Shown here: positions 22,158 through 45,584 of the stretch, piece by piece
Numbering within the stretch: the first letter of the stretch is position 1
How the letters are laid out: the number at the start of each line of letters is the position of its first letter
NCBI RefSeq assembly: GCF_030818955.1
Contig: NZ_JAUTBF010000001.1
Coordinates: 3,671,271 to 3,735,270 of the forward strand
Direction of reading: 5' to 3'
Length of the DNA: 64,000 nucleotides
Source of the DNA: Microbacterium trichothecenolyticum
GTDB taxonomy: Bacteria > Actinomycetota > Actinomycetes > Actinomycetales > Microbacteriaceae
Translations under genes and position numbers: made by a program
Notes under the pieces: generated by a model
What the model saw: the letters and a program-made list of their open reading frames with translations, nothing else
The model's database searches: none
What the model was told of the DNA's origin: nothing

Positions 22158-23177
22158 TCAGCCGAACGAGGCGTCGGGGTAGAGCGCTTCGGCGATCTGG
22201 CGCACGACCGAGACGTTTCCGAGGGTGCCCGGGAACATGTCGGAGCTCGAGACCGCGATCAGGCGACCGTTTCGCACCGCCGGCATGTCGGGGAACGTCG
22301 CGGTGAGGTACGCGCGTACGGCTTGCTCGTGGGCGGGATCGGTGACCGCGAACACGAGCGCGTCCGGTGCCTGGGCGGCGAGGGACTCGGGGGTGATCTC
22401 CGCGGCGAAGAAGTCGGCGAACTGGGGGTCGTCGGGCGTGTAGATCGTGTCGGCGCCCGCGTGACGGAGGATGTCGTACTCGACCCCCGCGCCGATCGCG
22501 CTGAGCGTGGTGCCGTCGACGTAGATCTGCGCGACGCGGGGCTTGGTACGGCCCTGGATCGCCGTGTCGACGGAGGCCAGCTGCGCTTTCGCGTCGGCGA
22601 TCAGCGCCGCAGCTTCGTCGTGCACGTCGAAGATCTCGCCGAGGTTGTTCAGATCGACGAACAGGTCGTCGACCGTGCCGTCCATCCGGCGCGAGAAGCA
22701 TCCCCCCGTCGCGGTGTACGCCGCGACTCCCGCCTCGGCGAGCTGCTCGATGCTCGCGAAGCCCTGCTCGGCCGTGAACTCGTAGGTCGTGGGGGAGTAG
22801 ACGAAGTCGGGGTGGACGGCGAGGAGGTCCTCTCGGCTCGGGGGCGTTTCGCCTCCGATGACGGGTACGTCTGCCGCGAGGGGCGCCACGTCTGCCGGGA
22901 GCTCCTGCACGGTCGCCTGGGCTTGGCCGACGAGGTGGTCGGCGAGTCCCAGGCGCAGCAGGAGCTCGGTCTGCGAGGGGTGCAGGCCGACCGCGGCGGT
23001 GGGGACGTGGGTGATCGTGACCGGTGCGCCGCAGTTCTCGATGACGAGGGCGTCCCCGGTGGGGGTGGCCGCACCTTGGGGCGCGACGGCGGAGCCGCAG
23101 GCGGTGAGCGCGAGTGCGCCGAGGCCGCCGGCGATCGCCATCATCAGGCGGGCGGGTCGAAGGGAGTGCTGTGTCAT
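22158..23177 (-). CDS. FecB/siderophore-type ABC substrate-binding lipoprotein
   Basis: A 339-residue exported protein with a lipobox signal peptide (LGALALTACGS, Cys near residue 27). The rest is a type III periplasmic-binding fold as in FecB, BtuF and siderophore receptors: VGLHPSQTELLLRLGL, SREDLLAVHPDFVYSP, VAQIYVDGTTLSAIGAG, and IPV-type closing helices near the end. Its start overlaps the ATPase stop (ATGA). It is the last gene of the five-gene left operon. Proteins of this family bind metal chelates or corrinoids, never free sugars. Given the Fur/Zur-type box and RiPP genes upstream, a metallophore is the best guess. Confidence 0.85.
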   Translation of the reverse strand: MTQHSLRPARLMMAIAGGLGALALTACGSAVAPQGAATPTGDALVIENCGAPVTITHVPTAAVGLHPSQTELLLRLGLADHLVGQAQATVQELPADVAPLAADVPVIGGETPPSREDLLAVHPDFVYSPTTYEFTAEQGFASIEQLAEAGVAAYTATGGCFSRRMDGTVDDLFVDLNNLGEIFDVHDEAAALIADAKAQLASVDTAIQGRTKPRVAQIYVDGTTLSAIGAGVEYDILRHAGADTIYTPDDPQFADFFAAEITPESLAAQAPDALVFAVTDPAHEQAVRAYLTATFPDMPAVRNGRLIAVSSSDMFPGTLGNVSVVRQIAEALYPDASFG

Positions 23178-23986
23178 TCGTTTCTCTCTGTCGGGGTATC
23201 GGATGGGGAGGGACCGCGAAGCGGACGGGGGTGAAAGGCCATGACGCGCGCGCCCGTGTCGATCTCCGTCGCCACGCGCGCCGTGACGCGGAAGACGCCG
23301 CCGACCAGGTCGGGGGTGAGAACGGCATCCGGCTGCCCGACCGCGACGAGGTGACCCTCATCGAGGACCGCGACCTCGTCGCAGAACGCCGCGGCGATGT
23401 TGAGGTCGTGGAGGGCGGCGATCACGGTCGTTCCGAGGCCGCTGACGACCCGCATGAGGTCGAGCTGGTGAGCGATGTCGAGATGGTTGGTCGGTTCGTC
23501 GAGCACGAGGATCTCGCCGTCCTGTGCCAGGGCGCGCGCGAGCATCACGCGCTGCCGCTGGCCTCCGGAGAGCCGGCGCACGAGGCGGTCCTCCAGATCG
23601 AGCACGTCGGCGGTGCGCAGCGCCTCCGTGACGATCCGGCGGTCGTCGTCGGTGTCGCGGCTGAAGGGCGCGTGATGCGGAGCGCGCCCGACCATCACGG
23701 TCTCGCGCACCGTCAGGTCGAACTCCGAGGGGGCGTCCTGCAGCATGACCGCGACCCGGCGGGCGAGGGTGCGCGGCGGCAGCGTCGAGACGTCGACGCC
23801 GTCGATGCGTACGCGGCCGGCGTGCGGCCGGCGGCCCGTGAACAGGGTGCGCAGCAGGGTCGACTTGCCGCTGCCGTTGGGCCCGAGCAGGCCGAGGATC
23901 CGGCCGCGGCCGACCTCCAGCTCGACGTCGTGCAGAACGCGCCGTCCGCCGAGCTCCACGCTCACGGACTCGAAGGACACCGTCAT
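23174..23986 (-). CDS. FecE/siderophore-type ABC transporter ATPase
   Basis: The 270-residue ATPase shows Walker A GPNGSGKSTLLRTLF, signature LSGGQRQRVMLARAL, Walker B ILVLDEPTNHLD and H-loop IAALHDLNIAA, in the arrangement of FecE/FepC-type iron-chelate and cobalamin importers. Its ATG overlaps the permease stop (23983-23986), and its stop overlaps the start of the binding-protein gene (23174-23177). The C-terminal 50 residues are a short regulatory extension. Confidence 0.9.
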   Translation of the reverse strand: MTVSFESVSVELGGRRVLHDVELEVGRGRILGLLGPNGSGKSTLLRTLFTGRRPHAGRVRIDGVDVSTLPPRTLARRVAVMLQDAPSEFDLTVRETVMVGRAPHHAPFSRDTDDDRRIVTEALRTADVLDLEDRLVRRLSGGQRQRVMLARALAQDGEILVLDEPTNHLDIAHQLDLMRVVSGLGTTVIAALHDLNIAAAFCDEVAVLDEGHLVAVGQPDAVLTPDLVGGVFRVTARVATEIDTGARVMAFHPRPLRGPSPSDTPTERNE

Positions 23987-25092
23987 CGGTCGAACCCCGC
24001 CCTCTCGCCGCCGCGTCGCATGAGCCACAGGAAGAACGGCGCCCCGACGAACGCGGTGAGGATGCCGAGGGGGATCTCGGTCGGTGTGGCAACGGTCCGC
24101 GCGAGGAGATCGGCCACCATGAGGAAGAGCGCACCCCCGAGCACCGCGACCGGGACCATCCGGCGATGGTCCGAGCCCACCAGCAGACGCGCGACGTGCG
24201 GGACCACGAGCCCCACGAATCCGATGCCGCCGCTCACCGCGACGATCACCCCCGTGAGCAGGGAGGCGATCACGAGGAGGATTGCGCGCACCCTGGTGGT
24301 GCGCACCCCGACCGCGAGAGCGGACTCGTCGCCGGCTAGCAGGGCGTTCATCGATCGCGAGAGTCCGAAAGCGGCGATCAGAGCGATCGCGAGCGCGATC
24401 GCGGGGATCGTCAGCGACGACATGGTGGCGGCGGACACGCTGCCGAGGAGGAAGAACATCACGCTGACGACGTTCTGCGCGTCCGTCGTCAACGTCAGGT
24501 AGCTCGTGACGGCGCTCAGCAGGGAACCGAGAGCGACCCCCGCGAGGATCATGCGGGTCGGTGACAGCTCTCCGCGCGTCCGCGCCAGGAGCGCGACGAG
24601 CACGCAGGACCCGACGGCTCCGGCGAAAGCCGCCCCGCTCATCGTCACGCCGAGGAACGCGGCGCCGCCCGAGACGATCACGAGCACGGCACCCACGCTC
24701 GCGCCCGAGGACACCCCGAGGATGTAGGGCTCGGCGAGAGGATTGCGCACCACGGCCTGCATCATCGTGCCCGCAAGGGCCAGCCCCGCCCCGGCGAGTC
24801 CCGCGAGCAGCGCCCGCGGCAGACGGAACTGCCACACCGCCTGATCCTGCAGCGGGGTGAGAGAGCCGTCCGTCATCCACGGCATCCCCGGCACCAGGTG
24901 CCCGATCACGAGCTTCGCGGCGTCGATCGGCGGCACGGGCACGGGGCCGATCGCGCCGGAGAGCACGACCGTCACCACGAGCAGGACGGCGCTGACCGTC
25001 ACTGTCACCCCGAGCGGCACGACCCTTCCTCCCTGCCGCGCGGCGCGCGGGACTGTCCGCCAGCGCGCGGTGCGCTGCGTCGTCGCGGTCAT
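23983..25092 (-). CDS. FecCD-type ABC transporter permease
   Basis: A 369-residue permease of the FecCD/BtuC family with about ten helices, including AGAGLALAGTMMQAVVRNPLAEPYILGVSSGA (in parts), the ALGVR-type cytoplasmic loop (SALAVGVRTTRVR), and the closing HVARLLVGSDHRRMVP region. There is one permease gene, so it would act as a homodimer. The ATG at 25092 has overlaps on both sides (ATGA with the S9 peptidase stop). A long N-terminal frame upstream is a shadow of the peptidase gene. Confidence 0.9.
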   Translation of the reverse strand: MTATTQRTARWRTVPRAARQGGRVVPLGVTVTVSAVLLVVTVVLSGAIGPVPVPPIDAAKLVIGHLVPGMPWMTDGSLTPLQDQAVWQFRLPRALLAGLAGAGLALAGTMMQAVVRNPLAEPYILGVSSGASVGAVLVIVSGGAAFLGVTMSGAAFAGAVGSCVLVALLARTRGELSPTRMILAGVALGSLLSAVTSYLTLTTDAQNVVSVMFFLLGSVSAATMSSLTIPAIALAIALIAAFGLSRSMNALLAGDESALAVGVRTTRVRAILLVIASLLTGVIVAVSGGIGFVGLVVPHVARLLVGSDHRRMVPVAVLGGALFLMVADLLARTVATPTEIPLGILTAFVGAPFFLWLMRRGGERAGFDR

Positions 25093-26774
25093 CGGATGCC
25101 TCCGCTCGTCACGTCGGCGGCGAACTCGAGCACCGTGAGACCCAGTGCGTGCAGGTCGTCGAGCGCGTTGGCTCCGTGCCCCGCCGATGGAGCGGTCCAC
25201 ATCCGCGCGGGCGCGCCCAGTCGCTGCAGGGCGTCGACCGTGCGGCGCGTGTCGATGGCCCGGACGCGGGTGTCGCGGCCCAGGGTGATCCCGAGGAAGG
25301 CGGGGAGGCCCTCGGCATCCGTCCGCTCCTCGACCAGAGCGAGCGGGGAGAGACGGCGGAGCCGGTTGCGGGATGCGGCACTGCCGTCGTCGCCGAACTC
25401 CGATCGCCAGCCCGCCCCGAGCGGGTGCTCCGCGAGCGAGAGGAGGTCGAGGGGCGCGGCCGTCGTCACGACGCCCGCGCAGAGACCGGGATGCTGGAAC
25501 GCGCAGCTCGCGGCGACGACTCCCCCCAGCGACGCGCCGACGAGCACGAGGAGATCGGGTCGTGTGATCCCCCGGTCGATGAGGGCACGCGCGATGTCGG
25601 CGAGGTCGTCGACCGCCTGCTGCTTACGCGCACCGCTGCCGGCCGCGCGCCACGAACCACCGCGCTCGCCGCCGCCGCGGATCTGGGCTGTCACGTAGGC
25701 GCCGCCGTGCGCGACCCAGGCGGGGACGGTGGGCTCGAAGACGGGGAGATGCGGAACCCCGAAGCCCCCGTAGCAGGCGAGGAGGAGCGGCCTCGGCCCG
25801 GAACCCTCGGCGGGTGCGGTGAGGTGGGCGGTGAGGGTCTCGCCGTCTCGCGCCGGGACATCGAGGCGGCGCGTCTGGCCCGTCGGCGCCTCGGGCGCGG
25901 CATCCGTCTCGGTGACGATCCGCGGCGGCGTGAGCGGGCCCTCGACGGCGAGATACAGGATGCCGTCGTCGATGCGCACCCCGGTGGTCGTCGACTCGCC
26001 CACCGCGGCGATGGTCGCCTCCCGTGCGCCCGTGGCGTCGACGCCCGAGACGACGGTCCGACCGTCGCGGACCCCCAGGATGACGATGCGGTCGTCGGCG
26101 ACGGTGACATCGGTGATCCGCAGCGAGTCGTCGCGACGCGTCCAGCGGGTCGTGCCGGAGCAAGCGAGAGCGTCCACCCCGTCCGCGTGCCAGACGAGCA
26201 CGCCGTCGGTGAGCGGGAAGGCGCCGTGCAACGCGTTCCATCGCCCGAGCTGTCGTCCCGTGGCGCGATCGAACAGGCTCGTGCCCTGGCCGCGCGTCGT
26301 GCGGGCGAGCAGCCCGCGCGTGCCGCCGGGGAACAGGCGGCTGCGATGAGCGGGTTCCAGGGGCGTGGACGTCCACGCGCCGGAGTCGACGTCGAGGGTG
26401 ACGAGTGCGTCGTCACGACTGGCGACGACCTCGAGGCAGCGCGAGTCGTCGCTCCACAGCACGGTGTCGTAGCGCAGCCGGATCTCCGGATGCAGGCGGA
26501 GGGCGCCGGATGCCACGTCGACGATGCCGAGCACGGCGTCCTCGCTCGCGTCCGCGGCCCATTCGATCGCGATGTGCCGGCGGTCGGGGGACGGGCTCAT
26601 GCGATGGATGTGCCCGTCCGGGGCGATCACGGTGCGGCCGTCGGCATGCCGGAGAGCGGGTCGGGGAGTGCCCGCCGCGCGGTCGAGGACGAATCCGCGA
26701 ACGGGCAGCCCCGGGCGGGGGTGGCGCTCGTGCGCGGTGAGCGCCTCGTCGAGCGCGTCGCGGAGCGCGGTCAT
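25089..26774 (-). CDS. S9-family prolyl-oligopeptidase-like peptidase
   Basis: A 561-residue protein with the two-domain layout of prolyl oligopeptidases: an N-terminal beta-propeller (about residues 30-320) and a C-terminal alpha/beta hydrolase (about 330-560). The hydrolase has LLLACYGGFGVPHLP, the QIRGGGERGGSW oxyanion strand, the nucleophile elbow GASLGGVVAASCAF, and the catalytic His in APSAGHGAN. Prolyl oligopeptidases cut short peptides after proline. There is no signal peptide, so it is cytoplasmic. Placed inside a metallophore-importer operon it could release metal by cutting an imported peptide, as esterases do for siderophores, or mature the precursor. Confidence 0.8.
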   Translation of the reverse strand: MTALRDALDEALTAHERHPRPGLPVRGFVLDRAAGTPRPALRHADGRTVIAPDGHIHRMSPSPDRRHIAIEWAADASEDAVLGIVDVASGALRLHPEIRLRYDTVLWSDDSRCLEVVASRDDALVTLDVDSGAWTSTPLEPAHRSRLFPGGTRGLLARTTRGQGTSLFDRATGRQLGRWNALHGAFPLTDGVLVWHADGVDALACSGTTRWTRRDDSLRITDVTVADDRIVILGVRDGRTVVSGVDATGAREATIAAVGESTTTGVRIDDGILYLAVEGPLTPPRIVTETDAAPEAPTGQTRRLDVPARDGETLTAHLTAPAEGSGPRPLLLACYGGFGVPHLPVFEPTVPAWVAHGGAYVTAQIRGGGERGGSWRAAGSGARKQQAVDDLADIARALIDRGITRPDLLVLVGASLGGVVAASCAFQHPGLCAGVVTTAAPLDLLSLAEHPLGAGWRSEFGDDGSAASRNRLRRLSPLALVEERTDAEGLPAFLGITLGRDTRVRAIDTRRTVDALQRLGAPARMWTAPSAGHGANALDDLHALGLTVLEFAADVTSGGIR

Positions 26775-27979
26775 CGGCCCACCGGGTCGGTGAAGCGCCC
26801 GGGAGGGGCGGGCCACAACAGGTGCCCGCCCTCGTCGAGGGAGTCGGGCATGTCGATCGTGGTGAGGCCGCCCTCGTCGTCGACGAGATGGATGACGCCG
26901 TCGCCGCCCGCTGTCACGGCGATGATGCCGGAGCGGGGATCGATCGCGACCGCTCGCCTGTGCGCGGGGCGCCCGTCGACGCCGTCCCACGGCATGCGGC
27001 CCGGGTGCGGCGGTGAGCCGAGCGGGGGGAGGGGAACCACTCGGGCGATGCGCCCCCTCACGCGGTCGATCACGACGAGGGCGTCGCCGTCGGGATGGAT
27101 CACGGTGGTGGCGGCGATCCCCTGGGCCAGTGCGAAGCGGAAGACGAGGCCGTTCGGCAGCGGCACGGTGCGTGCGGCACCCGAGTGAAGGTCGATCTCG
27201 GCGAAGACGTTGGTCCACTCCGTCCAGCGCGACGGGTTCGTCGGGCCGCCGCGGAGCACGCCCGTCGCGTTCCCGGTGTCACTCGCGCGGCGCAGGTAGT
27301 AGGCGCGTCCGTCCGCGGGCCAGGGGATCACGCCAAGGGCGTGCGGGGCGCCGTCGTCGATCGCGAACCTCTCCAGACCGCGCCCCGTGGCGACGCCGAC
27401 GACACCCGTCTCGTGGTCGACCACGTCGCCGTGCCCGTCGTCGGCGAGGTCATCGCACACGCTGCCACGCAGTACGGGCACGTGCGCACCGAGGTCGAGA
27501 GCGCTCGCGAGCGGTATCGCCTCGATCGCGCCGGGATCGCGGTGGCGCAGCACGATCGTCGGCCGCCCGGTCGCCCGGTCCGGCGCTATCACGACGCCGG
27601 GCTCACCGGTGCGGGTTCGGAACCGCACGGAGGAGTCGCGAGCGAGATCGACGACCGTCACGACATCGTTCCACGCGTCGTCGTTCGCGCCGAGCCCGGG
27701 GGTGACGACGACCTGGGATCCGTCCGCCGAGGCGGCGAGGTGCTCGGCGGGGATCGCGATCGGGATGCGACGGATGCCATCCGGACCGCAGACGACGAGA
27801 GCACCGCCGCGGTCGTCCGCGAACGCCCAGGAGTCTCGCGCCTCGGGAGGGAGCACGAGGAAACCGGCGTGCTCGGCGAGCAGGGCGTCCGAGGCGACGA
27901 CATGCCGAGAGTCCCCGTCGAGGGAGAAAACGGTTCCTGCCCGGTGATCGGCGGCGAGAAGAGCAGTCCCTGAGAGCAT
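26771..27979 (-). CDS. stand-alone beta-propeller protein, first gene of the importer operon
   Basis: A 402-residue protein built of repeated beta-strand motifs ending in Asp-Gly or Gly-Asp turns (for example VVCGPDGIRRIPI, AASADGSQVVVTP, VVIDRVRGRIARVVPL, VTAGGDGVIHLVDD), which suggests a six- or seven-bladed propeller. It has no signal peptide, no catalytic motif and no membrane helix. Its stop overlaps the start of the S9 peptidase gene (ATGA). It resembles a peptidase propeller without its hydrolase, so a partner of the S9 enzyme or a peptide-binding scaffold is possible. The name is based on pattern only. Confidence 0.55.
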   Translation of the reverse strand: MLSGTALLAADHRAGTVFSLDGDSRHVVASDALLAEHAGFLVLPPEARDSWAFADDRGGALVVCGPDGIRRIPIAIPAEHLAASADGSQVVVTPGLGANDDAWNDVVTVVDLARDSSVRFRTRTGEPGVVIAPDRATGRPTIVLRHRDPGAIEAIPLASALDLGAHVPVLRGSVCDDLADDGHGDVVDHETGVVGVATGRGLERFAIDDGAPHALGVIPWPADGRAYYLRRASDTGNATGVLRGGPTNPSRWTEWTNVFAEIDLHSGAARTVPLPNGLVFRFALAQGIAATTVIHPDGDALVVIDRVRGRIARVVPLPPLGSPPHPGRMPWDGVDGRPAHRRAVAIDPRSGIIAVTAGGDGVIHLVDDEGGLTTIDMPDSLDEGGHLLWPAPPGRFTDPVGR

Positions 27980-28000
27980 GACGGCGATGCTACTAGATAT

Positions 28001-28015
28001 TGAGAATCATTCTCA
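28001..28015. promoter_or_regulatory. Fur/Zur-type operator in the divergent promoter
   Basis: TGAGAATCATTCTCA is a perfect 7-1-7 inverted repeat, the form bound by Fur-superfamily repressors. It differs from the Fur consensus TGATAATNATTATCA and from actinobacterial Zur boxes (TGAAAATNATTTTCA) at one symmetric position. Iron control in actinobacteria is usually by DtxR/IdeR, whose box is different, so Zur is favoured. It lies 22 bp upstream of the left operon and 78 bp upstream of the peptide gene, placed to repress both. Confidence 0.65.
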
Positions 28016-28093
28016 TTTAGGGTCGATGACGTTCACGACGGTGAACGCCGCTTCGCACCCGCGGAGTGGACGTAACGAGAGAAGGAGAAGGAA

Positions 28094-28192
28094 ATGGACA
28101 AGCAGATCCTGTCCGAGATCGAAGAGACCGAGCAGCTGGCGCACCTGTCGGCGACCCACTCGAACGCGCTCGTCGAGAACCCCTTCGAGTGA
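28094..28192 (+). CDS. candidate RiPP precursor peptide, 32 residues
   Basis: A short gene with a strong ribosome binding site (AGAAGGAGAAGGAA directly before ATG). The product has an acidic leader (MDKQILSEIEETEQLA) and a core region HLSATHSNALVENPFE. It contains no cysteine. Core residues Ser19, Thr21 and Ser23 are the possible cyclisation sites, His17 and His22 flank them, and Pro30 is the only proline. It starts the operon of YcaO, E1-like and SagB-type genes, the expected place for a precursor. Two hairpins follow it. The gene is too short for routine gene callers. An alternative is a small unrelated peptide, but the context makes that unlikely. Confidence 0.75.
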   Translation: MDKQILSEIEETEQLAHLSATHSNALVENPFE

Positions 28193-28200
28193 TCCTCGAG

Positions 28201-28251
28201 GTCGCGTCACGCTGACGCGACCCCCGGCCGGGCGCCTCGCGCCCGGCCGGG
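28201..28251 (+). terminator. tandem hairpins, probable partial terminator after the precursor gene
   Basis: Two perfect stem-loops lie 9 bp after the precursor stop. The first is GTCGCGTCA-cgc-TGACGCGAC (28201-28221). The second is a 12-bp stem CCCGGCCGGGCG with a CCTCG loop (28223-28251), followed by CTTTC. Partial termination here would make the precursor mRNA more abundant than the enzyme mRNA, as known for many RiPP operons. Confidence 0.65.
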
Positions 28252-28268
28252 CTTTCGGAAAGACATCC

Positions 28269-29072
28269 ATGCCTCACCACCCCCGAATCACCCCCGTGCC
28301 CGCAACCGGTGCCCATGTCGTCGCTGTCGACGAGGACGCGCCGCTGCTGCGACTTCGCACCGGAGACCACGCCGCGATCGGCTCCCCGCCGTCGGAACTG
28401 CACGGCGTCCTCGACTCGCCTGCCCCGGGTGCCGCCGCATCCGCGTATCGGGATCGGCTGGTCGGCGAGGTCCAGGAGCGCGAGCGCGCCGACGACGAAC
28501 GCCGCTGGCCTTCGGCCCGCCGCCGCATCGGCGTGGTGGGCACCGGCGTGCTGTCCGACGAGATCGCGCGTGCACTGGGGGCGTGGGGCGCTCGGGTGGG
28601 GAGGGGCATCTCCGCCGCGGAGGCGCGAGATTCCGTCGCGCTGGTCATCTCGGTGTCAGACGGGGCGTCGGAGCGCCGCGATCACGCCGTGCTCGACGAC
28701 CTCCTCGCCACCGGCACCGCTCGGTTGCGCGTGTACCGGGAAGGGGAGTGCGTTCTCGTCGATCCGCTCGCGGTCGATGTCACCGACATCACGGCCGCGC
28801 AGGTCGCGCGGCGTCGGATCGCCGCCAGCACCGTGCCGGACGCTCTCGGCGCGTGGCAGCGCCACGGACCTGTGGCGGATCAGCCCGTGGACTCGGCGAC
28901 CGTCAGCCTCGTGACGGCGCGCGTGCTCACGATGACTCTCGCGTGGGCGCAGGACGACGAGGCGCTGCCCCGACTGCGCACCACACTCTGGAAACTGGTG
29001 CCCGCGCTCGGCCGAGTGACCGAGCACCCGGTGCTGCCCTACCCGACGCCGTACCCGGGAGCGGGCCGGTGA
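28269..29072 (+). CDS. E1/ThiF-like cyclodehydratase partner protein
   Basis: About 267 residues. The middle has a Rossmann-like nucleotide fold (RRIGVVGTGVLSDEIARALGAWGA), as in the degenerate E1-like or ocin-ThiF-like proteins that bind the leader peptide and activate YcaO enzymes in azoline biosynthesis. The end, TEHPVLPYPTPYPG, matches the conserved C-terminal His-Pro region of this family. No zinc-binding Cys pairs are seen. The start ATG is at 28269; the longer frame from 27978 is a shadow. It overlaps the next gene (GTGA). Confidence 0.7.
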   Translation: MPHHPRITPVPATGAHVVAVDEDAPLLRLRTGDHAAIGSPPSELHGVLDSPAPGAAASAYRDRLVGEVQERERADDERRWPSARRRIGVVGTGVLSDEIARALGAWGARVGRGISAAEARDSVALVISVSDGASERRDHAVLDDLLATGTARLRVYREGECVLVDPLAVDVTDITAAQVARRRIAASTVPDALGAWQRHGPVADQPVDSATVSLVTARVLTMTLAWAQDDEALPRLRTTLWKLVPALGRVTEHPVLPYPTPYPGAGR

Positions 29073-30043
29073 TCCCGCCGCGGGACGCCCGCCCGCACGT
29101 CTGGCGCACCGACGACGGCGTCGCTCTGCACGGCTGGATCTGGGAGCCCGAGACCCCGCGGGGCATCGTCGTGGTGCGCACGCCCTACGGCGTCTGGCGT
29201 CACGGGGACACCGCCCGCTCCTGGGTGCGGCGCGGGTACCGCTGCCTCGTGCAGGACGTGCGCGGCCGCCACGACTCCGGGGGCGAGTGGAACCCCTACC
29301 TCCACGAGCGTCGTGACGGCGCATCCGTCGTCGCCGCGCTCCGCGCCCAGGATCCGCACCTCCCCGTCGTGCTCTCGGGAGGGTCGTACGACGCCCACGC
29401 GGCGCTGGAATGCGCCCGCGACGTCGACGTCGACGCGCTCGTGCTCATGGTGCCCGCCCTCGGACTCGCCGAGACCGCCTGGGACGCGGAGGGTCGCCCC
29501 CAGCTCTTCGACCGCATCGGGTGGTGGCATCAGCACGGACGCGGTCCCCGCTCGTTCCCCGCGTTGACGGAGGGCGAGCTGCACGCGCGGGTTGCGAGCG
29601 CTGAGCGGCGGGGCGTGGAACGGGCGGCTCGGGACTGGGAATGGGCGCCGGCCGTGCTCGCGGGGTGGCGGAGACTGTGGACGACTCCGCCCGTCGACCT
29701 GGACCGCGCGTACGGGGCGATCGACGCCCCGCTTCTGCTCATCCGCGGCGACGACGACTTCTTCTACGCCGATGCCGGGCGACTGGCCGCCGCGTGGGGA
29801 GCCGACGTGCACGTCGTCGACGGGCCGTGGGGCCATCGCCTCGGAGCCGACATCCACGATGAGGATGTGCGTGCTCGCCTCCGGGACTCGGGCGGGATCG
29901 GCGGTGTGCTCGATGCGTGGCTCGCACGTACCGGCCTGCCCTCGGGAGTCGCCGGCACTCGCCATGTCGTGCCGGTGGGCCGACGATCGCGGTCCGCCTT
30001 CGAGCCGCGCTCCGGTCGCTGGCATCACGAAAGGACAGCATGA
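29069..30043 (+). CDS. CocE/NonD (S15)-like alpha/beta hydrolase in the RiPP operon
   Basis: A 324-residue hydrolase of the X-Pro dipeptidyl-peptidase/CocE type: VRTPYGVWRHGDTARSWV, then CLVQDVRGRHDSGGEW (the oxyanion strand), then the nucleophile elbow VVLSGGSYDAHAALEC. A short acid segment PLLLIRGDDDFFYADA and a closing His in DGPWGHRLG complete the triad. Family members cleave X-Pro dipeptides or acyl esters. Usual CocE proteins have GRSYGG; here it is GGSYDA, so the elbow is altered but the Ser is kept. In the RiPP context it may remove leader or follower residues. The GTG at 29069 overlaps the previous stop; its stop overlaps the YcaO start. Confidence 0.7.
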   Translation: MIPPRDARPHVWRTDDGVALHGWIWEPETPRGIVVVRTPYGVWRHGDTARSWVRRGYRCLVQDVRGRHDSGGEWNPYLHERRDGASVVAALRAQDPHLPVVLSGGSYDAHAALECARDVDVDALVLMVPALGLAETAWDAEGRPQLFDRIGWWHQHGRGPRSFPALTEGELHARVASAERRGVERAARDWEWAPAVLAGWRRLWTTPPVDLDRAYGAIDAPLLLIRGDDDFFYADAGRLAAAWGADVHVVDGPWGHRLGADIHDEDVRARLRDSGGIGGVLDAWLARTGLPSGVAGTRHVVPVGRRSRSAFEPRSGRWHHERTA

Positions 30044-31431
30044 CCCGCGACAGCATCTCGTCCCTCCCGCCTCTTCCCGTCGAGACCCTGGTGGACGCCG
30101 AGACCGGTGTCATCCGGTCGATCCGCGCGGTTGCGCACCCGGCGGGGGCTCCGCACCGCTACCTCGCGCTCACGGCATCCGTCTCCGACGCCCGAGCCCT
30201 GGGCGAGTGGCCGGCCGATCGGGTCTCGCTCGGCACGTCGTTCGGCGACCCCGCCCAGGCCCGGATCGCGGCGATCGGCGAGGGCGTCGAGCGGTACTGC
30301 GGCAATTGGCTCCCCGAGACCTTGCCGCACGACGACCTGCGCGTCGCCACCGCCGACGAGCTGCGGGCGGACGGGCACCCGGTGATCGCGCTCGACGACC
30401 TGCCCCGGTTCGCCGATTGGCAGCTCGCCCGGGAGGGCTTCGCCTACCGGGAACTGGATGCCGCGACCCCCGCGCTCTGGGCACGGTGCCGGGATGCCGA
30501 GGGCAGGCCGATCTGGCTGCCCGACGCCCTCGTGCACCTCAACTGGAGGCAGTCGCGCTTCCGGCACCTTCCCCGCACGCACCACCTCAACTACGCCGGT
30601 ATCGCCACCGGAACGAGTGTCGACGACGCGCGCGACCGCGGGATGCTCGAGGTCGTCGAACGCGACGCGCTCGAGGTGTGGTGGCATCTCGACGGGCCGA
30701 CGTTCGGCATCGATCCCGCGAGTGTTCCCGGCCTGGTGGACGACCTGCGGGGCAGCAGCTTGAGGGTCTGGCTGGTGGCGATGCCGTCGGAGTTCGCTCC
30801 CGCGATCGCGGCCCTCGTACACGACGCGGATCGCGGGCTGTACGCCGCGGGCTTCTCCGTCGCGCTCGACCCCGCGAAGGCGGCACGCAAGGCCGTGCTC
30901 GAAGCGGTCCACACGTGGATCTACACCCAGGGCTGCACGGATGCCGACGGGTGGGTCTTCCGCGCCGTGCAGGCCGGGGTCATGGCGAAGGGGCTGATGC
31001 TGGACTTCCGCCCCGACGCCGACTACCTCACCGCGGCCGGCCCGCAGTTCGAGCGGGTGATCGATCTCGGAGCCCATGTCCAGGTCTGGCTCGATCCCGC
31101 CGTTCACGGCGAGGCGCGGCGGTTCACCGATCCCGCGCTCGGGGTGCGACCGCTCAGCGCCGTGCCCGCGGTCACGATGGCCGAGGTTCACGACCGACTG
31201 CGTCGGCGGGGCCATCGCGTGCTCACGCGCGACCTCACCACCGCGGATGTGCGCCGCACCCCGCTGCGGGTCGTGCGCACATTCGTCACGGGGCTCGTGC
31301 CCAATGCTCCGGCGGCCTTCTCGTACCTCGGGATGCCGCGACTGCGCGACGCGGCGCACGAGCGAGGGTGGCGCGCGGCCTGGAGCGGCGGACCCGAGGA
31401 TTTCACGCTCCTGCCCGCGCCCCACATGTGA
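30040..31431 (+). CDS. YcaO-type azoline cyclodehydratase
   Basis: A 463-residue YcaO protein. ATP-site motifs are present: SLGTSFGDPAQARIAAIGEGVERYC, then GTSVDDARDRGMLEVVERDALEVWW, then AAGFSVALDPAKAARKAVLEA. YcaO enzymes cyclise Ser, Thr or Cys side chains onto the preceding backbone carbonyl using ATP. The C-terminus ends in LLPAPHM rather than the PxPxP tail of some azoline YcaOs. The ATG at 30040 has AAAGGAC upstream and overlaps the hydrolase stop. It is the defining gene of the cluster. The absence of Cys in the precursor implies oxazole or methyloxazole products. Confidence 0.85.
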   Translation: MTRDSISSLPPLPVETLVDAETGVIRSIRAVAHPAGAPHRYLALTASVSDARALGEWPADRVSLGTSFGDPAQARIAAIGEGVERYCGNWLPETLPHDDLRVATADELRADGHPVIALDDLPRFADWQLAREGFAYRELDAATPALWARCRDAEGRPIWLPDALVHLNWRQSRFRHLPRTHHLNYAGIATGTSVDDARDRGMLEVVERDALEVWWHLDGPTFGIDPASVPGLVDDLRGSSLRVWLVAMPSEFAPAIAALVHDADRGLYAAGFSVALDPAKAARKAVLEAVHTWIYTQGCTDADGWVFRAVQAGVMAKGLMLDFRPDADYLTAAGPQFERVIDLGAHVQVWLDPAVHGEARRFTDPALGVRPLSAVPAVTMAEVHDRLRRRGHRVLTRDLTTADVRRTPLRVVRTFVTGLVPNAPAAFSYLGMPRLRDAAHERGWRAAWSGGPEDFTLLPAPHM

Positions 31432-31441
31432 GGCGGACGAC

Positions 31442-32479
31442 GTGATCGATCCGCGACCGGCCGTTCTGCCGCACTCCGTCGGCCTTCTCGACGGCCCTCT
31501 CGCGCGCGTGCTCACGACGGACCCTCCGGGGGAGCCGTTGCCTCCGGGACCGCGCGTCAACGCCTGGCACCGTGCCGGTGCGGTGGCGGGGAGTCCCGGG
31601 GCGGCGCTGATCGCCCTCGTCGAGGCGCTGTGGCATCCGGGGGAACCGCATCGCGCCTCGAACGGCACCGAGACCGCAATCCCGCGCCGTCCGGTGCCGT
31701 CGGCGGGGGCGTGCTACCCCGTGCAGACGCACCTCGTCGTCGACGGCGCGCGCTGGGTCTACGACCACGACCACGGTGTCGCCCGCCGCAGGGATCCCGC
31801 CATCGAGCGCGCCGCGGGGTGGCCCGGCGGCGACGTCACGGCATCCGACACCGCGACGCTCGTCTTCACCGTGCAGCCGGGACGATCGTTCGGCCGGTAC
31901 CGGCACCGCGCATGGCCGCTGTGGATCGCCGACGCGGCCTACGCGCTCGCGGCCTTGGAGTTCGTCCTCGGACGCCTCCCGGCCTCCGTGCGATACGGTC
32001 CTTCCGCGTCTCTTCGCACGGTGCTCGCCGTCCCTCGTGCGGCGCAGACGCCCTCGTGGACAGGTCTCGGGCTCGCCCCGGAGATCCCGCTCGTCGCCGT
32101 CGACGTGCCCTCGCGTCCCGAGCTGATCGGCGACGCCGTCCAGACCCTCGCGCAACGACGTTCGCCGAGCCTCGACCTCTTCCTCGCGCGCGCCGCGTCG
32201 CGTCGCCCGACGCCGTGCCTCGAGGATGTCGCCCGCGCCTCCGGTCAGGCATGGGTCCGCGGGGCGGCGGCGGTCCGCTCGTGGTCGGTTCGGATCCCGT
32301 CCTCGCCCGCTCAGCTCGCCCGGGCGGTGTGGACCGGTCATCTCGCCGCCGCCCGCCTCGCGTACGCCGGGGCGTTGCGCGGCGCGGACTCCCGCCCCGT
32401 CTCCGGTCTCGCCGCCCAGGGGGACCGGTGGATCTTCCACGCCCTCGCCTTCCTCGACCCTCCGGGAGATTGCCCATGA
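31442..32479 (+). CDS. SagB/ThcOx-type flavin dehydrogenase
   Basis: A 345-residue protein with the nitroreductase-like FMN-binding pattern of SagB enzymes: RRPVPSAGACYPVQTHLVVD in the middle and RYRHRAWPLWIADAAYALAAL, both typical. SagB enzymes oxidise azolines made by YcaO proteins to aromatic azoles. The GTG at 31442 has GAGGCGG upstream. Its stop overlaps the start of the first exporter gene (ATGA at 32476-32479). Residues 1-60 are Pro-rich and less conserved. Its presence predicts aromatic oxazoles in the product. Confidence 0.75.
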   Translation: MIDPRPAVLPHSVGLLDGPLARVLTTDPPGEPLPPGPRVNAWHRAGAVAGSPGAALIALVEALWHPGEPHRASNGTETAIPRRPVPSAGACYPVQTHLVVDGARWVYDHDHGVARRRDPAIERAAGWPGGDVTASDTATLVFTVQPGRSFGRYRHRAWPLWIADAAYALAALEFVLGRLPASVRYGPSASLRTVLAVPRAAQTPSWTGLGLAPEIPLVAVDVPSRPELIGDAVQTLAQRRSPSLDLFLARAASRRPTPCLEDVARASGQAWVRGAAAVRSWSVRIPSSPAQLARAVWTGHLAAARLAYAGALRGADSRPVSGLAAQGDRWIFHALAFLDPPGDCP

Positions 32480-34120
32480 TGATCGTCCCCGCACTGTGGC
32501 GGGAGGCGTGGCGCGCCCCACGCCTCCTCGCCGCGAGCGTCCTGCTCCAACTCCTCGTGTTCGCGACGCACGTCGCGCAGGCCGTCGCTCTCGCGGTCGC
32601 CCTGGCGGCGCTCGTGCACGGCGATGCGGGAGGTGCGCTCCTCGGCATCGGTGCCATCCTCGGGAACCGGCGTCGCGCGCCTGCTGCTGGGCCTCGCTCA
32701 GCGCGACGCCGCCGTGCGGCTCGGCGGCCGCGTGCGCGAAGAGCTGCGAGCGCGGGCCGTCTCGGCCGTGCTCACCCCGGAACGGCTCCACGACGTGTCG
32801 TTGCGCGACGGCTCCACCCGCCTCACGCTCGGCGACGGCATCGACGGCACCGAGGCCTACGTGTCGAAGTACATCCCGGCGGTCGTGCAGCTGGGCGTCG
32901 GCGGCATCGGCGTCGTCGTCGCCCTCGCGACGCTCTCTCCGGGGCTCGCCGCGGGGATCGGCCTCGCCCTGATGCTCGCGGTGCTCGGGCCGATGGCATG
33001 GAAGAAGATGCTCGCGCGCCGAGGATTCACGCACTGGGATACGTACGAGGCGCTCAGCGGCGACCTGCTCGAGGCGCTCCGTGGCATGTCGACGCTGCGC
33101 GCGCTGGGCGACGTCCCCGCGACGCGCGCGCGCCTCCAGGCACGCTCGGAGGCGTTGCGTCAGGCGACCGAACGGGTGATGCGCTCGTCGCTCGCCGAGA
33201 CGGCGATCACGGATTTCGCGATCCAAGCCGGAGCCGTACTCGCCGCGGGAGTCGCGATCGTCGCCGTGCTCACCGGGCAGGCGCCGGCGACGGAGGTGTA
33301 CGTGCTGTTGCTGCTGTCGTCCGAGGCGTTCCGTCCGGTACGCGAGCTCTCGCGTCATTGGCACGCGGGGTTCCTCGGCCTCACCGCGGTGCCCGGGCTG
33401 CGCGCACTGGGTGCCTTCTCCGACGCCGACTCCGCGGATCGCCGACACCCGGCATCCCTCCCTCCGGCGAAGGGAGCGGGGGCGGAGCTCGTGATCACCG
33501 GCCTGTCCTACCGCTATCCCGGGGCCGAGTCGCCCGTGCTGGACGGCGTGTCCCTGCGCGCCGAGCGTGGTGCGGTCCACGCCATCATCGGCCCGTCGGG
33601 AGCGGGCAAGTCGACCCTGTTCGATCTCGTGCTCGGCTTCCTCCGCGCCGACCGGGGGAGCGTCGAGCTCGACGGTCGACCTCTGCGCGCCGACGACGTC
33701 GCGGTGGTCTCTCAGCGTCCCGTCCTGTTCGCGGCGACCGTGCGCGAGAACATCGACCTGTTCGGATCGCCGCAGGGCGAGCTCGAGCGCGCCTGCGCGG
33801 ATGCCGGGGTGCTCGACGAGATCCTCGCCCTGCCCGGAGGCTTCGACGCGCCCGTCGCCGAGGCCGGGGCGAGCCTCTCCGGGGGCCAACGGCAAAGGCT
33901 CGCCCTCGCCCGTGCCCTCCTGGCCCGCCGCCCCGTGCTGCTGGTCGACGAGCCGACGAGCGCCCTCGACGACGCCAACGCGGAGCTGGTCGCACAGACC
34001 CTGGAGCGGGTCGCCGCCGATCGCATCGTCCTGATGATCAGCCACCGTCCCGAGGCGCTCCGCCGCGTCGCTCACGTGCACGTGCTCGAGGGTGGCGCTC
34101 TCGTGGAGGCGGCGTCGTGA
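32476..34120 (+). pseudogene. ABC exporter subunit (permease-ATPase), interrupted by one-base frameshift
   Basis: The frame opens at 32476 (MMIVPALWREAW) with an N-terminal helix, LLQLLVFATHVAQAVALAVAL, then breaks near 32665. From there a frame one base later continues with TGVARLLLGLAQRDAA through to 34120. Removing one A from the GGGAACC run at 32662-32668 restores an unbroken 547-residue protein with Walker A GPSGAGKSTLF, signature LSGGQRQRLALARAL and Walker B VLLVDEPTSALDD. It is a CydD-like exporter half that should pair with the next gene. A sequencing or assembly error is as likely as a true mutation. A functional start inside the second frame is possible but would remove the first helix. 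Confidence 0.72.
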
Positions 34121-35784
34121 GCGGCGGGACGGCCTCGGTCCTGGCCCGCCTGATCCCGCCGCTGCGGCCCGAGTGGCGGCGCATCGTCGGCAGCTACGTC
34201 CTCGCGACCACGAGCCTGCTCGCCCTCGCGGCGATCGGCGTGCTCGCCGCCCTGAGCGTCGGCGGCGCCGTCGTGCACGGTCAGTGGCCGTCCGCGGCCT
34301 GGTGGGTCGCCCTGGTCGCGCTCGTGCTGCTTCGGACCCTTCTCACCTGGCGGGAGATGGACGTCTCGCACGCCCTCGCGTACCGGGTGCTCGCCCGCTT
34401 GCGAGTCGCCCTGTTCGACGCCTACGCCCGCAGTGTCCCGGCCCGCCGCCGCGAGCACTCCGGGAGGGCCGCATCGGTGGCGATGACCGACATCGAGAAG
34501 CTCGAGTTCTTCTACGCGCACACCCTCGCCCAGCTCGGCGCCTCGGTGACGCTCTTCGTGGCGGCGCTCGGGGTCGCGGCGGTTCTGATGCCGGCCGCGG
34601 CCGTCGTCATGGTGCTCGGTGCCGCCCTCGTCGCCCTGACGGCATGGGTGGGCGCCGGGGCGACGCGGCGCGTCGGCGAAGAGGAGCAGGGGGAGCGCGA
34701 GCGCCTGTCGGAGCGGCTGGTCGACGCCCTGGGGGCGTTGCGCGAGGTGCTCGCGTACGGGCTGCAGGACCGTGTCGTCGCCGACGCCGTCGCGGCCACG
34801 CGGCGCTCGGTCCGAACCGCTCGTCGCCGCGAGTTCCTCGCGGGCGTCATCGACGGGTCGCGCGAACTGATCCTCACCGGTGTCCTCATCGGTGTCGTCG
34901 CCTCGGCCCTGTTCGTCGGAGGCGTCGGTGACCCCCGGTCGGCGGCGCTGGCTCCGGCGGTCCTCGCCCTCGCCGTCGCCGGGGTCGCGGCGATCGCCGA
35001 TGCGGCGCACACTCTCTCGGAGCTGCACCCTCTGGTGGCCAGCGCAGCCCGCGTCGACGAAGGACTGCGTCGGTCGCCCGTCGTCGCTCCGGTCGTCGAC
35101 GCTCGTCCCGTGCCGGCCGGACCGCTCGGCATCCGCTTCCACGATGTCGAGTTCTCCTACGACGATCGCACGCGGGTGCTGCGGCGCTGGTCGGCCGAGG
35201 TGCACCCGGGCGAGCACGTCGGGATCGCAGGGCCGTCCGGTGCGGGCAAGAGCACCGTGATCGCCCTGGCCGCGCGGCTCTGGGACCCCGACGGCGGCGA
35301 GATCGCGCTCGTCGACAGCAACGGACGGGGGATGCCACTGCGTGAGGTGGCGGAGGAGGATCTCCGTGCCGCCGTGGCCGTCGTCGAGCAGGACGCGCGT
35401 CTGTTCCACGGCACGGTGCGTGACAACCTCCTGCGGGGCACGGCCGGTCGAACGGACGCGGACCTCGTCGGCATCCTGGACCGCGTCGGCGCCCGCGACT
35501 GGATCAGCCTCGACGACGAGCTCGGCGAGCACGGCGTCCGTCTCTCGGGAGGCCAGCGCGCCCGGCTCGCCCTCGCCCGCGCGCTCTGTCGCGAGCCGCG
35601 GATCCTGATCGTCGATGAGATCACCGCGAGCCTGGACCCGACGACCGAGAAGGCGATCTCGCAGGTGCTCGCCGAGGTCGACGCGACCGTCGTCGTCGCC
35701 TCGCACCGTCGGGAGACACTCGCCCGGCTCGGCCGCGTGCTGCGGGTGGAGCCACCGGCCGGTGCAGCCTCACCCTCCGAGTGA
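34117..35784 (+). CDS. ABC exporter subunit (permease-ATPase), second half
   Basis: A 555-residue protein with six N-terminal helices (for example LATTSLLALAAIGVLAALSVGG) and a C-terminal ATPase: Walker A GPSGAGKSTVIALAARLW, signature LSGGQRARLALARAL, Walker B ILIVDEITASLDP. The Glu in DEI rather than DEP is a small departure. It overlaps the first exporter gene by GTGA (34117-34120), so the two form a CydDC-like heterodimer, probably secreting the finished peptide and conferring self-protection. It is the last gene of the right operon, 79 bp before an IS3 element. Confidence 0.85.
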   Translation: MSGGTASVLARLIPPLRPEWRRIVGSYVLATTSLLALAAIGVLAALSVGGAVVHGQWPSAAWWVALVALVLLRTLLTWREMDVSHALAYRVLARLRVALFDAYARSVPARRREHSGRAASVAMTDIEKLEFFYAHTLAQLGASVTLFVAALGVAAVLMPAAAVVMVLGAALVALTAWVGAGATRRVGEEEQGERERLSERLVDALGALREVLAYGLQDRVVADAVAATRRSVRTARRREFLAGVIDGSRELILTGVLIGVVASALFVGGVGDPRSAALAPAVLALAVAGVAAIADAAHTLSELHPLVASAARVDEGLRRSPVVAPVVDARPVPAGPLGIRFHDVEFSYDDRTRVLRRWSAEVHPGEHVGIAGPSGAGKSTVIALAARLWDPDGGEIALVDSNGRGMPLREVAEEDLRAAVAVVEQDARLFHGTVRDNLLRGTAGRTDADLVGILDRVGARDWISLDDELGEHGVRLSGGQRARLALARALCREPRILIVDEITASLDPTTEKAISQVLAEVDATVVVASHRRETLARLGRVLRVEPPAGAASPSE

Positions 35785-35934: not shown

Positions 35935-36252
35935 GTGCCCAAGCCTTATCCGAAGGAGTTCCGTGACGACGTGGTGCGCGTTGCGGAGAACCGTGAGCCC
36001 GGCATGACGATCGAGCGGATCGCCGCCGATTTCGGTGTTCACCCGATGACCCTCATGAAGTGGCTCGCCCGATCGCGTGCCGAGAAGATCGCCTCCGAGA
36101 CGGGCTCGCCGTCGCCCAGCGACTGCGACGCCGAGCTTCGCGAGTTGCGCCAGCGCAACCGGCTGCTCGAGCAGGAGGTCGAGGTGCTGCGCCGGGCGAC
36201 GGCGTATCTGTCACAGGCGCATCTGCCGGGAAAAGGCTCTACCCGCTCGTGA
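35935..36252 (+). CDS. IS3 transposase OrfA
   Basis: About 105 residues with a helix-turn-helix (TIERIAADFGVHPMTLMKWL) and a C-terminal coiled coil (ELRELRQRNRLLEQEVEVLRR in part), the standard OrfA for IS3-family elements. The GTG at 35935 is preferred over upstream starts because homology begins there (PKPYPKEFRDDVVRVAE). The frame ends soon after the AAAAG slippery stretch at 36231-36235, where translation can shift back by one base into OrfB. Confidence 0.85.
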   Translation: MPKPYPKEFRDDVVRVAENREPGMTIERIAADFGVHPMTLMKWLARSRAEKIASETGSPSPSDCDAELRELRQRNRLLEQEVEVLRRATAYLSQAHLPGKGSTRS

Positions 36253-37112
36253 AAGAGCTCGCCTGTGACGGGATCCCCGTCGCGGTGACGTGCCGGGTCC
36301 TTACGCTCGCCCGCCAGCCCTACTATCGCTGGCTCAAACAGCCCATCACCGAGTCGGAACTGGTGGAGGCCTATCGCGCGAACGCGCTGTTCGACGCGCA
36401 TCGCGACGACCCCGAGTTCGGGCATCGCCTCCTCGCTGACGAGGCCCGGGATGTCGGGGAGGCGATGTCGGACCGGACTGCGTGGAAAATCGCGTCCGAG
36501 AACGGCTGGTGGTCCGCATTCGGCAAGAAGAAGGCACGCGGCAAGGGCCGCAAGACCGGCCCGCCCGTTCACGACGATCTCGTGCAGCGGGAGTTCACCG
36601 CCGACGCTCCGAACCGGCTCTGGCTGACCGACATCACCGAGCATCGAACCAGCGAGGGCAAGCTCTACCTCTGCGCGATCAAGGACGTCTTCAGCAACAA
36701 GATCGTCGGCTACTCGATCGACGCGCGGATGAAATCCCGCCTCGTGGTGAACGCGATCGACAACGTCGCCGCGCTGCGCGGAAACGTCGCCGGCTGCGTC
36801 GTACATTCCGACCGCGGATCGCAGTTTCGCTCCCGGAGAGCGATTCGCGACCTGGCCCGTCACCGCATGGTCGGATCGATGGGCAGAGTCGGTGCCGCGG
36901 GCGACAACGCCGCCATGGAGTCGTTCTTCTCGCTCCTGCAGAAGAACGTCCTCAACCGACGCTCCTGGACCACCCGCGAACAGCTGCGCATCGCGATCGT
37001 CACCTGGATCGAGCGAACCTACCACCGACGCCGCCGACAAGACCGCCTCGGCCGTTTGACCCCGGTCGAGTTCGAGACCATGATGACCAAAACCCTGGCC
37101 CTCGCGGCCTGA
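36234..37112 (+). CDS. IS3 transposase OrfB (DDE integrase), reached by -1 frameshift
   Basis: The catalytic domain continues as KRLYPLVKELACDGIPVAV, then an HTH_21 region (YYRWLKQP), then the rve integrase core with DDE residues: Asp in WLTDITEH, Asp in VVHSDRGSQF, Glu in GDNAAMESFF. It ends with RLTPVEFE, typical of the family. I see no ATG or GTG start in this frame near the junction, so it is probably made only as an OrfAB fusion. Confidence 0.88.
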   Translation, partial: RLYPLVKELACDGIPVAVTCRVLTLARQPYYRWLKQPITESELVEAYRANALFDAHRDDPEFGHRLLADEARDVGEAMSDRTAWKIASENGWWSAFGKKKARGKGRKTGPPVHDDLVQREFTADAPNRLWLTDITEHRTSEGKLYLCAIKDVFSNKIVGYSIDARMKSRLVVNAIDNVAALRGNVAGCVVHSDRGSQFRSRRAIRDLARHRMVGSMGRVGAAGDNAAMESFFSLLQKNVLNRRSWTTREQLRIAIVTWIERTYHRRRRQDRLGRLTPVEFETMMTKTLALAA

Positions 37113-37120
37113 CTAACCCC

Positions 37121-37146
37121 TGTCACCCATCCGTGCAGCAGACCCC
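37121..37146 (-). repeat. right terminal inverted repeat of the IS3 element
   Basis: The plus-strand sequence TGTCACCCATCCGTGCAGCA plus GACCCC is the inverted copy of the left repeat with one mismatch. It starts 9 bp after the transposase stop. Confidence 0.85.
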
Positions 37147-37245
37147 GGACCGGTGATGCTTTTCGGGCTACACGAAAGCTCTTCGTGTTGAAAGCGCTGC
37201 CCTCGGCCCGGCACGCATAGTCCGCAGACCGATGGCGAGCGCGAC

Positions 37246-39501: not shown

Positions 39502-39524
39502 GAAATTTCTCCGTATGGCACTGG

Positions 39525-40508: not shown

Positions 40509-40572
40509 TTGAAACCGATCAGCGTCAGAACGAGCACGAGAAAACTTGACGCGCAGCCGCTTGGCCTCGCTA

Positions 40573-40923
40573 TCAAGGGACGGTATTAACAGGTGCAAAA
40601 AACACTTGTGCTAGAACTGCACCTGACAGTGATGCCGCGGCACTGAGCGCTAGCGCAATCAAGATCCCGGACCACCAAACTCGCCGAGCCCGCACTCCCA
40701 AGGCGATTAAGACCAGCGGGGCAATCACCTGGACCGTGAAGGTTGGAATTGTTCCAAGATAAAGCACGTTCGCGCTGGTGATTTCGGCGCCGCCCTGCCC
40801 GACGTCCTTCAGGGCCGTGTCAGTTACGGCCGCGAGCCAAAACCACGACCCGAAAAGTGCTGCGCTACACAAGGCGGCTCCGATGAGAAAGCCTATGTAA
40901 CGCTCGCCCCGCCAACCTCTCAC
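40573..40923 (-). CDS. small membrane protein with three helices
   Basis: A 116-residue hydrophobic protein with three predicted helices (GFLIGAALCSAALFGSWFWL, VQVIAPLVLIALGV, WSGILIALALSAAASLSGAV). No family recognised. It precedes the Tat-protein gene on the same strand by 64 bp and may belong to the same operon. Confidence 0.5.
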   Translation of the reverse strand: MRGWRGERYIGFLIGAALCSAALFGSWFWLAAVTDTALKDVGQGGAEITSANVLYLGTIPTFTVQVIAPLVLIALGVRARRVWWSGILIALALSAAASLSGAVLAQVFFAPVNTVP

Positions 40924-41836: not shown

Positions 41837-41956
41837 GTTGAAACGCCGCCTTCGTTAAGACGACGGTAAAACCAAAATCCTCCGCCACCGATGGCGGTCT
41901 CACACACTCCAACGCGAACGCTAACGGCTCGCGTGTACACCTGGAAGGATCCGCCA

Positions 41957-42316: not shown

Positions 42317-42367
42317 GCGACGAGTCGATCAGACCCCGGGGACACTACTCAGAGATAGGGTTCAGGC

Positions 42368-45569: not shown

Positions 45570-45584
45570 CTACTGATCCGGCCT

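Follow-up and report, generated by a model that had tools for sequence, protein, structure and literature searches.

The window analyzed here is the right-hand 64 kb of the single 3,735,270-base contig of Microbacterium trichothecenolyticum, and all positions refer to it unless stated otherwise. Between 22158 and 35784, it holds two divergent operons that flank a perfect 15-bp palindrome at 28001 to 28015. The rightward operon encodes a precursor peptide, its putative modification enzymes and two ATP-binding cassette (ABC) transporters, and the leftward operon encodes a FecB-type importer, a peptidase and a beta-propeller. Judged by sequence, the cluster is a member of the published streptamidine (ami) family of ribosomally synthesized and post-translationally modified peptides (RiPPs), and the palindrome is a Zur-type box. 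The genes that the original prediction had named were all present, in the two orientations described and with the palindrome in the shared promoter, and each of the four neighboring leftward gene pairs overlaps by 4 bp as it had stated.

On the plus strand, amiA (28094 to 28192) encodes a 32-amino-acid precursor with the core HLSATH and the conserved follower SNALVENPFE. Two stable adjacent hairpins lie between amiA and amiB (28200 to 28251, plus strand; -51.3 kcal/mol and z score of -5.6 for the RNA fold of 28190 to 28268); they could possibly form an attenuator that sets the precursor-to-enzyme ratio, or a processing element. No sigma-70-like promoter was found in 27900 to 28300. Next come an amiB-like gene for an E1/RRE-like partner of YcaO (28269 to 29072), an amiC-like gene for an S15/CocE-NonD hydrolase predicted to remove the leader (29069 to 30043; PF02129, 59 bits; TIGR00976, 56 bits, under the cutoff of 66), an amiD-like gene for a YcaO protein with a C-terminal PAPHM and a proline-rich tail (30040 to 31431; PF02624, 139 bits; TIGR03604, 187 bits, under the cutoff of 219) and an amiE-like gene for a SagB-type dehydrogenase with a GTG start (31442 to 32479). 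The operon ends with two ABC transporter genes, amiT1-like (ABC1, 32476 to 34120) and amiT2-like (ABC2, 34117 to 35784; PF00664 and PF00005). The E1-like and SagB-like proteins matched no Pfam or NCBIfam family, and their names come from gene position and the published ami cluster (PMC8442711).

On the minus strand, the gene nearest to the palindrome encodes a beta-propeller in the position of AmiX (26771 to 27979), with six near-invariant histidines in a conservation analysis and an AlphaFold2 (AF2) model of pLDDT 92.5. It is followed by the genes for a peptidase of the S9 prolyl-oligopeptidase family (25089 to 26774; PF00326, 91 bits), with no signal peptide evident from its N terminus, a FecCD-type permease (23983 to 25092; BtuC/FhuB/FecD-type NCBIfam matches, every one under its cutoff), a FecE/BtuD-like ABC ATPase assigned by family search (23174 to 23986) and a FecB-type substrate-binding lipoprotein (22158 to 23177; PF01497, 76 bits; AF2 pLDDT 87.9). 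The Protein Data Bank (PDB) matches of the lipoprotein were uncharacterized, siderophore-type and heme-type binding proteins.

The assignment to the streptamidine family follows from AmiA, which scored 65.1 bits with NCBIfam model NF040714 against a curated cutoff of 40, and from the gene set amiA to amiE, amiT1, amiT2 and amiF, recognized by gene order and homology across the window and 66 long loci of relatives (amiB and amiE by position). As described in the main text of PMC8442711, ami clusters comprise the precursor gene amiA, amiB for a hypothetical protein whose predicted structure is E1/RRE-like, amiC for a hydrolase, amiD for YcaO, amiE for a dehydrogenase, the ABC transporter genes amiT1 and amiT2, the FecBCDE-like genes amiF1 to amiF4, and amiX. 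They occur in more than 230 species. That paper, published in 2021, reported the link to FecBCDE and a suspicion of metal import, and its authors left the role open. The original prediction knew of no described system with this gene set, a statement that the paper overturns. The cluster of Streptomyces albidoflavus J1074 (MIBiG BGC0002115; NF040714) shares with ours the core HLSATH, the E1-like protein, hydrolase, YcaO, dehydrogenase, both ABC transporters and the FecB-type importer; ours differs in its divergent importer, its single permease gene, as against the four transporter genes named in the paper, and the added S9 peptidase (PMC8442711). The whole words Zur, Fur, peptidase and propeller were absent from the main text of PMC8442711.

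The product had been expected to be a linear oxazole peptide. Streptamidine ([M+H]+ m/z 647.33), made from the same core HLSATH, instead carries a six-membered amidine ring between His1 and Leu2, with unmodified Ser and Thr and no azole (PMC8442711), and a linear azole product was dropped as a candidate after the match of AmiA to NF040714. An azole-containing bacteriocin (linear azole-containing peptide, LAP), with the transporters serving immunity, would account for the YcaO, SagB-like and E1-like genes and for the proline-rich tail of YcaO. We nevertheless regard it as scarcely probable: the core contains no Cys and no Ser/Thr-rich run of the kind from which LAPs and thiazole/oxazole-modified microcins (TOMMs) form their azole rings, the cluster is accompanied by an importer, and the amidine peptide obtained from the same core had neither an azole nor activity against bacteria (PMC8442711). 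The main text of a TOMM survey (PMC4603692) does not contain the words siderophore, metal, iron or Microbacterium.

We then considered the control of the two operons. The palindrome, TGAGAATCATTCTCA, fits the Streptomyces coelicolor Zur motif tGaNNatSatNNtCa, derived from chromatin immunoprecipitation, and an actinobacterial znuA motif, both as given in PMC5472717. Allowing at most one mismatch, the window has a single occurrence of TGANAANNNTTNTCA, which is exact (mean of 0.16 in shuffled sequences, 13 of 100 of which had at least one site within one mismatch). Across the genome, TGANAATNATTNTCA with at most one mismatch gave eight sites, three of them exact, and a reversed control gave none. 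The sites outside the ami cluster lie upstream of znuA (PF01297, 190 bits), two CobW/COG0523-type GTPase genes, the gene for a CobW_C protein, the genes for an ABC ATPase and an SBP_bac_5 protein, a Mg-chelatase-like AAA gene, and either the gene for a large surface protein or the one divergent from it. We know of no established zinc role for the last three. The box preceding the ABC ATPase and SBP_bac_5 genes is at contig position 128629 (L124:5130), and this pair is possibly a second zinc importer, of peptide or opine type. Two genes of the Fur family are present in the genome: the one about 1.7 kb past the end of znuA would by its context be zur, and the other lies beside a katG-like gene named from its translation.

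These matches argue that the palindrome is a Zur-type box, with Zur as its predicted ligand, and a box of this type indicates zinc rather than iron. The earlier suggestion of Fur/Zur-type control by zinc or iron is thus sharpened to predicted control by Zur and zinc rather than iron, the box being common to znuA and COG0523-type genes. A siderophore-like system for iron or metals in general, under a Fur-type iron regulator, is suggested by the likeness of FecB- and FecCD-type proteins to iron-chelate, heme and corrinoid systems. We consider it very unlikely, as the box is that of znuA and COG0523-type genes, the other Fur-family gene lies beside the katG-like gene, a DtxR/IdeR-like site was not found in the promoter (two weak matches elsewhere were at chance level), and streptamidine was negative in the chrome azurol S (CAS) assay (PMC8442711).

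Similar sets of sites were seen in two other genomes, whose genes were named from their translations. In Streptomyces roseolus (L062), TGANAAYNRTTNTCA has one exact occurrence in 8.1 Mb, at the ami cluster; of the seven one-mismatch sites, two lie at znuA, one each at L32 with COG0523, at L33/L31 and at a CDF exporter gene, and two at places without an evident zinc gene. Nocardiopsis sinuspersici has three exact sites, one at znuA and one beside a shikimate dehydrogenase-like gene. In the open-license PMC literature, Zur control of streptamidine clusters was not found in print; what is new here is the predicted Zur assignment, the cluster itself belonging to a published family.

Relatives were collected by a profile scan of genome contigs with a three-sequence YcaO alignment. 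Of the best 80 of 89 relatives, 73 loci (L034 to L106) were used, and L107 to L113 were set aside as unrelated YcaO proteins (22 to 26% identity). Among the 73 loci, those encoding a single YcaO protein come from 18 actinobacterial genera, and two loci of the Rhodococcus group (L103 and L104) encode two; the YcaO of Microbacterium sp. GCS4 (L034) has 91% identity. In the 66 loci of at least 18 kb, with homologue thresholds chosen by eye, FecCD and the ATPase were present in all, the hydrolase in 65, the propeller, YcaO, ABC1 and ABC2 in 64 each, the E1-like protein in 62, FecB of the window subfamily in 37, S9 in 36 and the SagB-like protein in 34. The Streptomyces locus L062 has a FecB-like protein of its own (PF01497). 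Precursors were detected in 68 of the 81 sources searched (the window and L034 to L113), namely the window itself and 67 of the 73 loci. Fifty-eight are single, and 10 are tandem doubles, nine from Nocardiopsis and one from Glycomyces (L040, L042, L044 to L047, L049, L050, L052 and L053), with two cores per peptide and the leader segment repeated as well. Among 78 core copies, HLSASH was found 29 times, HDSASH 28 times, HLSATH 18 times and three further variants once each.

In drawn samples of 398 family genomes and 295 genus genomes, the genes were co-inherited. YcaO relatives at E 1e-10 were found in 14 family genomes and close ones (at least 62%) in three, and the propeller was present in exactly the same three. 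In the genus, relatives at E 1e-30 occurred in 14 genomes and close ones (at least 79%) in nine; S9 was present in exactly these nine, and FecB in these nine and 11 others. The joint occurrence of the YcaO and importer operons in relatives, proposed as a check of the original prediction, was thus confirmed, with FecB also found without YcaO in 11 of the 295 genomes, and the proposed tie of a YcaO peptide cluster to a dedicated FecB-type importer, with a box of the Fur family, gained support across several orders.

To examine the box across loci, a matrix was built from the seven non-ami sites and run over the 73 loci. Five without a propeller match (L043, L068, L096, L103 and L104) were dropped; in L103 and L104, a weaker best site (19.2) lies just upstream of FecCD. 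In 60 of the remaining 68 loci, the highest-scoring site anywhere in the locus lay 0 to 110 bp upstream of the propeller gene (0.4 expected by length). Part of this count reflects base composition, because the AT-rich promoter was also preferred by 40 column-permuted matrices, with a mean of 17.8 and a maximum of 45 of the 68 loci. In 67 of 68 loci, the promoter score was at least at the 95% level of shuffled-locus best scores. With 200 composition-keeping shuffles per promoter, 64 of the 68 promoters were never reached, and all 68 were reached at most twice. Among the eight exceptions to the placement, the best site precedes a separate FecCD operon in L064, L091 and L100, lies just upstream of amiA in L070 and L095, and is elsewhere in L053 and L063, where the promoter site ranks second; in L089, the propeller match is seemingly misplaced.

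The box was also found in more distant loci (YcaO identity 29 to 38%). In those from the family search (L131 to L139), the best site was beside the precursor or FecCD gene in eight of nine, L138 having no FecCD match; in the distant genus loci (L154 to L158), this was so in four of five, the exception, L155, being shortened by a contig end. A motif-B precursor (ALVHNPF) was present in eight of these 14 loci. The motif-B clusters of PMC8442711 resemble ours in the ALVxNPF follower, the FecBCD-type importer and the Zur-type box; they differ in having mostly two YcaO proteins and a core of the VLSAPQGPG type instead of HLSATH. Neither propeller nor S9 matches were found in L131 to L139. Motif-B precursors are probably those described by NF040715, "streptamidine-related RiPP repeat protein."

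The 11 genus loci with FecB (58 to 73% identity) and no YcaO relative at E 1e-30 (L143 to L153) gave further insight. In all 11, the best site is directly upstream of FecCD. Both ABC genes have homologues next to the importer, divergent from FecCD in L143 to L145 and L153 and co-directional downstream in the other seven. For the biosynthesis genes, the propeller and S9, no match exceeded 60 bits in any of the 11. These loci would suit the piracy of a foreign zinc carrier. The retention of the ABC pair with the importer in nonproducers calls into question whether the ABC proteins only export, and they may serve uptake or recycling as well. ABC1 and ABC2 were considered as importers resembling YbtPQ or IrtAB, and this was rejected: in a PDB search with ABC2, the best 60 of 560 matches were ABCB, CydC and other exporters. 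As none of these listed matches is YbtPQ- or IrtAB-like, the case for import by the ABC pair comes from the importer-only loci only.

For the propeller, the closest solved fold to the AF2 model, by Foldseek and VIA-align, was the zinc metallochaperone AztD. Homology by sequence was rejected, a profile comparison being nonsignificant (probability 2.8%); the AztD model NF038015 (cutoff of 400 bits) did not match the window protein and hit one of 36 members at E 0.1. AztD, as described in PMC6689063, is likewise a Zur-controlled beta-propeller with conserved histidines. It differs in sequence (about 15% identity), in being periplasmic and in handing zinc to the cluster A-I binding protein AztC (PMC6689063). 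An AmiX-like propeller with a signal-peptide-like start also occurs on a Bosea vaviloviae plasmid (L195, 10647 to 16565), in a zinc-type island that also contains a copy of hisI and a gene of the Fur family, with no RiPP cluster annotated.

Taken together, we propose that the locus is probably a ribosomal peptide system, controlled by Zur, that would acquire zinc through a putative zinc-binding product. Under Zur, the cluster would be switched on by zinc starvation. Zinc-loaded Zur would occupy 28001 to 28015 and repress both operons, and a drop in zinc would lead to production of AmiA. The E1-like protein, YcaO and SagB-like enzyme would modify the core HLSATH, with an amidine ring presumably forming between His1 and Leu2, and the hydrolase would cut off the leader; this amidine chemistry is known for S. 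albidoflavus only (PMC8442711). The product, or a longer form, would exit the cell and capture Zn(II) or strip it from weaker ligands, and the importer formed by FecB, FecCD and the ATPase would take the zinc-loaded form back up. Cleavage of the peptide by the S9 peptidase would free the zinc in the cytosol, and the histidine-bearing propeller would handle the metal.

Several observations weigh against zinc acquisition. According to the main text of PMC8442711, the hexapeptide streptamidine showed no binding of Fe(II), Co, Cu, Mg, Mn, Ni or Zn detectable by liquid chromatography-mass spectrometry, besides being CAS-negative, and an amiD mutant behaved like the wild type under metal starvation; the metal binding assumed in the original prediction thus runs counter to published data. 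The isolated hexapeptide may, however, be a fragment of the native product. The authors list loss of an oxidized part as one explanation for the requirement for AmiE (PMC8442711). Deletion of importer genes abolished streptamidine production (PMC8442711), which could reflect polarity or formation of the hexapeptide after uptake. Other zinc importers could have masked an effect of the single amiD deletion. On the genomic side, the base-composition share of the box placement counts in the same direction, as do the ami site of N. sinuspersici, which is degenerate (score of 15.3) and outside that genome's three exact sites, the absence of S9 from all Streptomyces loci among the long loci, and a transporter clade and gene order in Streptomyces unlike those of the window. 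The likeness to AztD lies in the fold only, no signal peptide is evident in the window propeller, whereas AztD is periplasmic, and a second alphaproteobacterial propeller homologue, in Rhizobium, has surroundings without zinc genes. Finally, ABC1 is broken in the studied strain.

The published findings would also fit a peptide that, under Zur control, acts as a signal of zinc starvation or has another role, the importer returning it as a cue with no zinc carried. Neither metal binding nor antimicrobial activity was found for streptamidine, its authors suggested signaling or development (PMC8442711), and the core is nearly invariant, with six variants in 78 copies. We think this unlikely, if worth serious consideration: the importer belongs to the metal-chelate class, its retention with a Zur-type box in all 11 importer-only loci is what one would predict if a metal carrier were pirated, and both the fold of the propeller and its neighborhood in Bosea point to metal handling.

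Of the two exporter genes that had been predicted, both were located, but the ABC1 frame is broken between its start at 32476 and about 32700. It is continuous in L098 (YcaO 94%) and in several Microbacterium loci (L035 to L039 and L059). The N-terminal motif, which varies, was recognized in frame in 13 of 28 sources, L034 being among the other 15. The break may be real decay or an assembly error. Because of this frameshift, and with an rve-domain transposase gene just downstream, the cluster might be decaying in the studied strain and its product useless. This appears improbable, since no further breaks were seen in the cluster, the box is perfect, a single break may come from the assembly, and deletion of amiT1-T2 in the published system reduced production without abolishing it (PMC8442711).

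Elsewhere in the window, the region downstream of the cluster (36060 to 46914) has a lower GC content (0.56 to 0.66) up to a tRNA-Lys gene at 46839 to 46914. It encodes the rve-domain transposase, an Rv2525c-like glycoside-hydrolase protein with peptidoglycan-binding domains and a recombinase-domain protein, and looks like an inserted element. A 1,312-amino-acid protein with AMP-binding, carrier and hexapeptide domains is encoded at 56183 to 60121; we take it to resemble single-module poly-amino-acid synthetases. The same genome has three more YcaO genes (L031 to L033), weakly or not similar to the ami gene.

Methanobactin is, like the system proposed here, a ribosomal peptide made upon metal starvation and re-imported; it differs in its metal, copper, and in its chemistry and enzymes, which are not YcaO proteins. 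Coelibactin and ethylenediamine disuccinate (EDDS) are not ribosomal peptides. Their actinobacterial biosynthesis clusters are under Zur (PMC6103462), as the ami cluster would be, and compared with them, the zinc binding of streptamidine is only inferred. Tentatively, and with rather less than even confidence, we suggest that the streptamidine superfamily, motifs A and B together, could be the first ribosomal, Zur-controlled zinc-scavenging system, in which a histidine-containing amidine peptide is secreted, its zinc complex is recovered through a FecB-type importer, zinc is freed by the peptidase and an AztD-like propeller, and importer-only neighbors act as pirates. The link to Zur suggests where to look for the native product and a phenotype, namely in zinc-starved cells that lack their other zinc importers, and it provides an unnamed propeller family with its first functional clue. 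If zinc binding is shown, these peptides would form a family of ribosomal zincophores, and the importer-only genomes would be a natural system for metallophore cheating.

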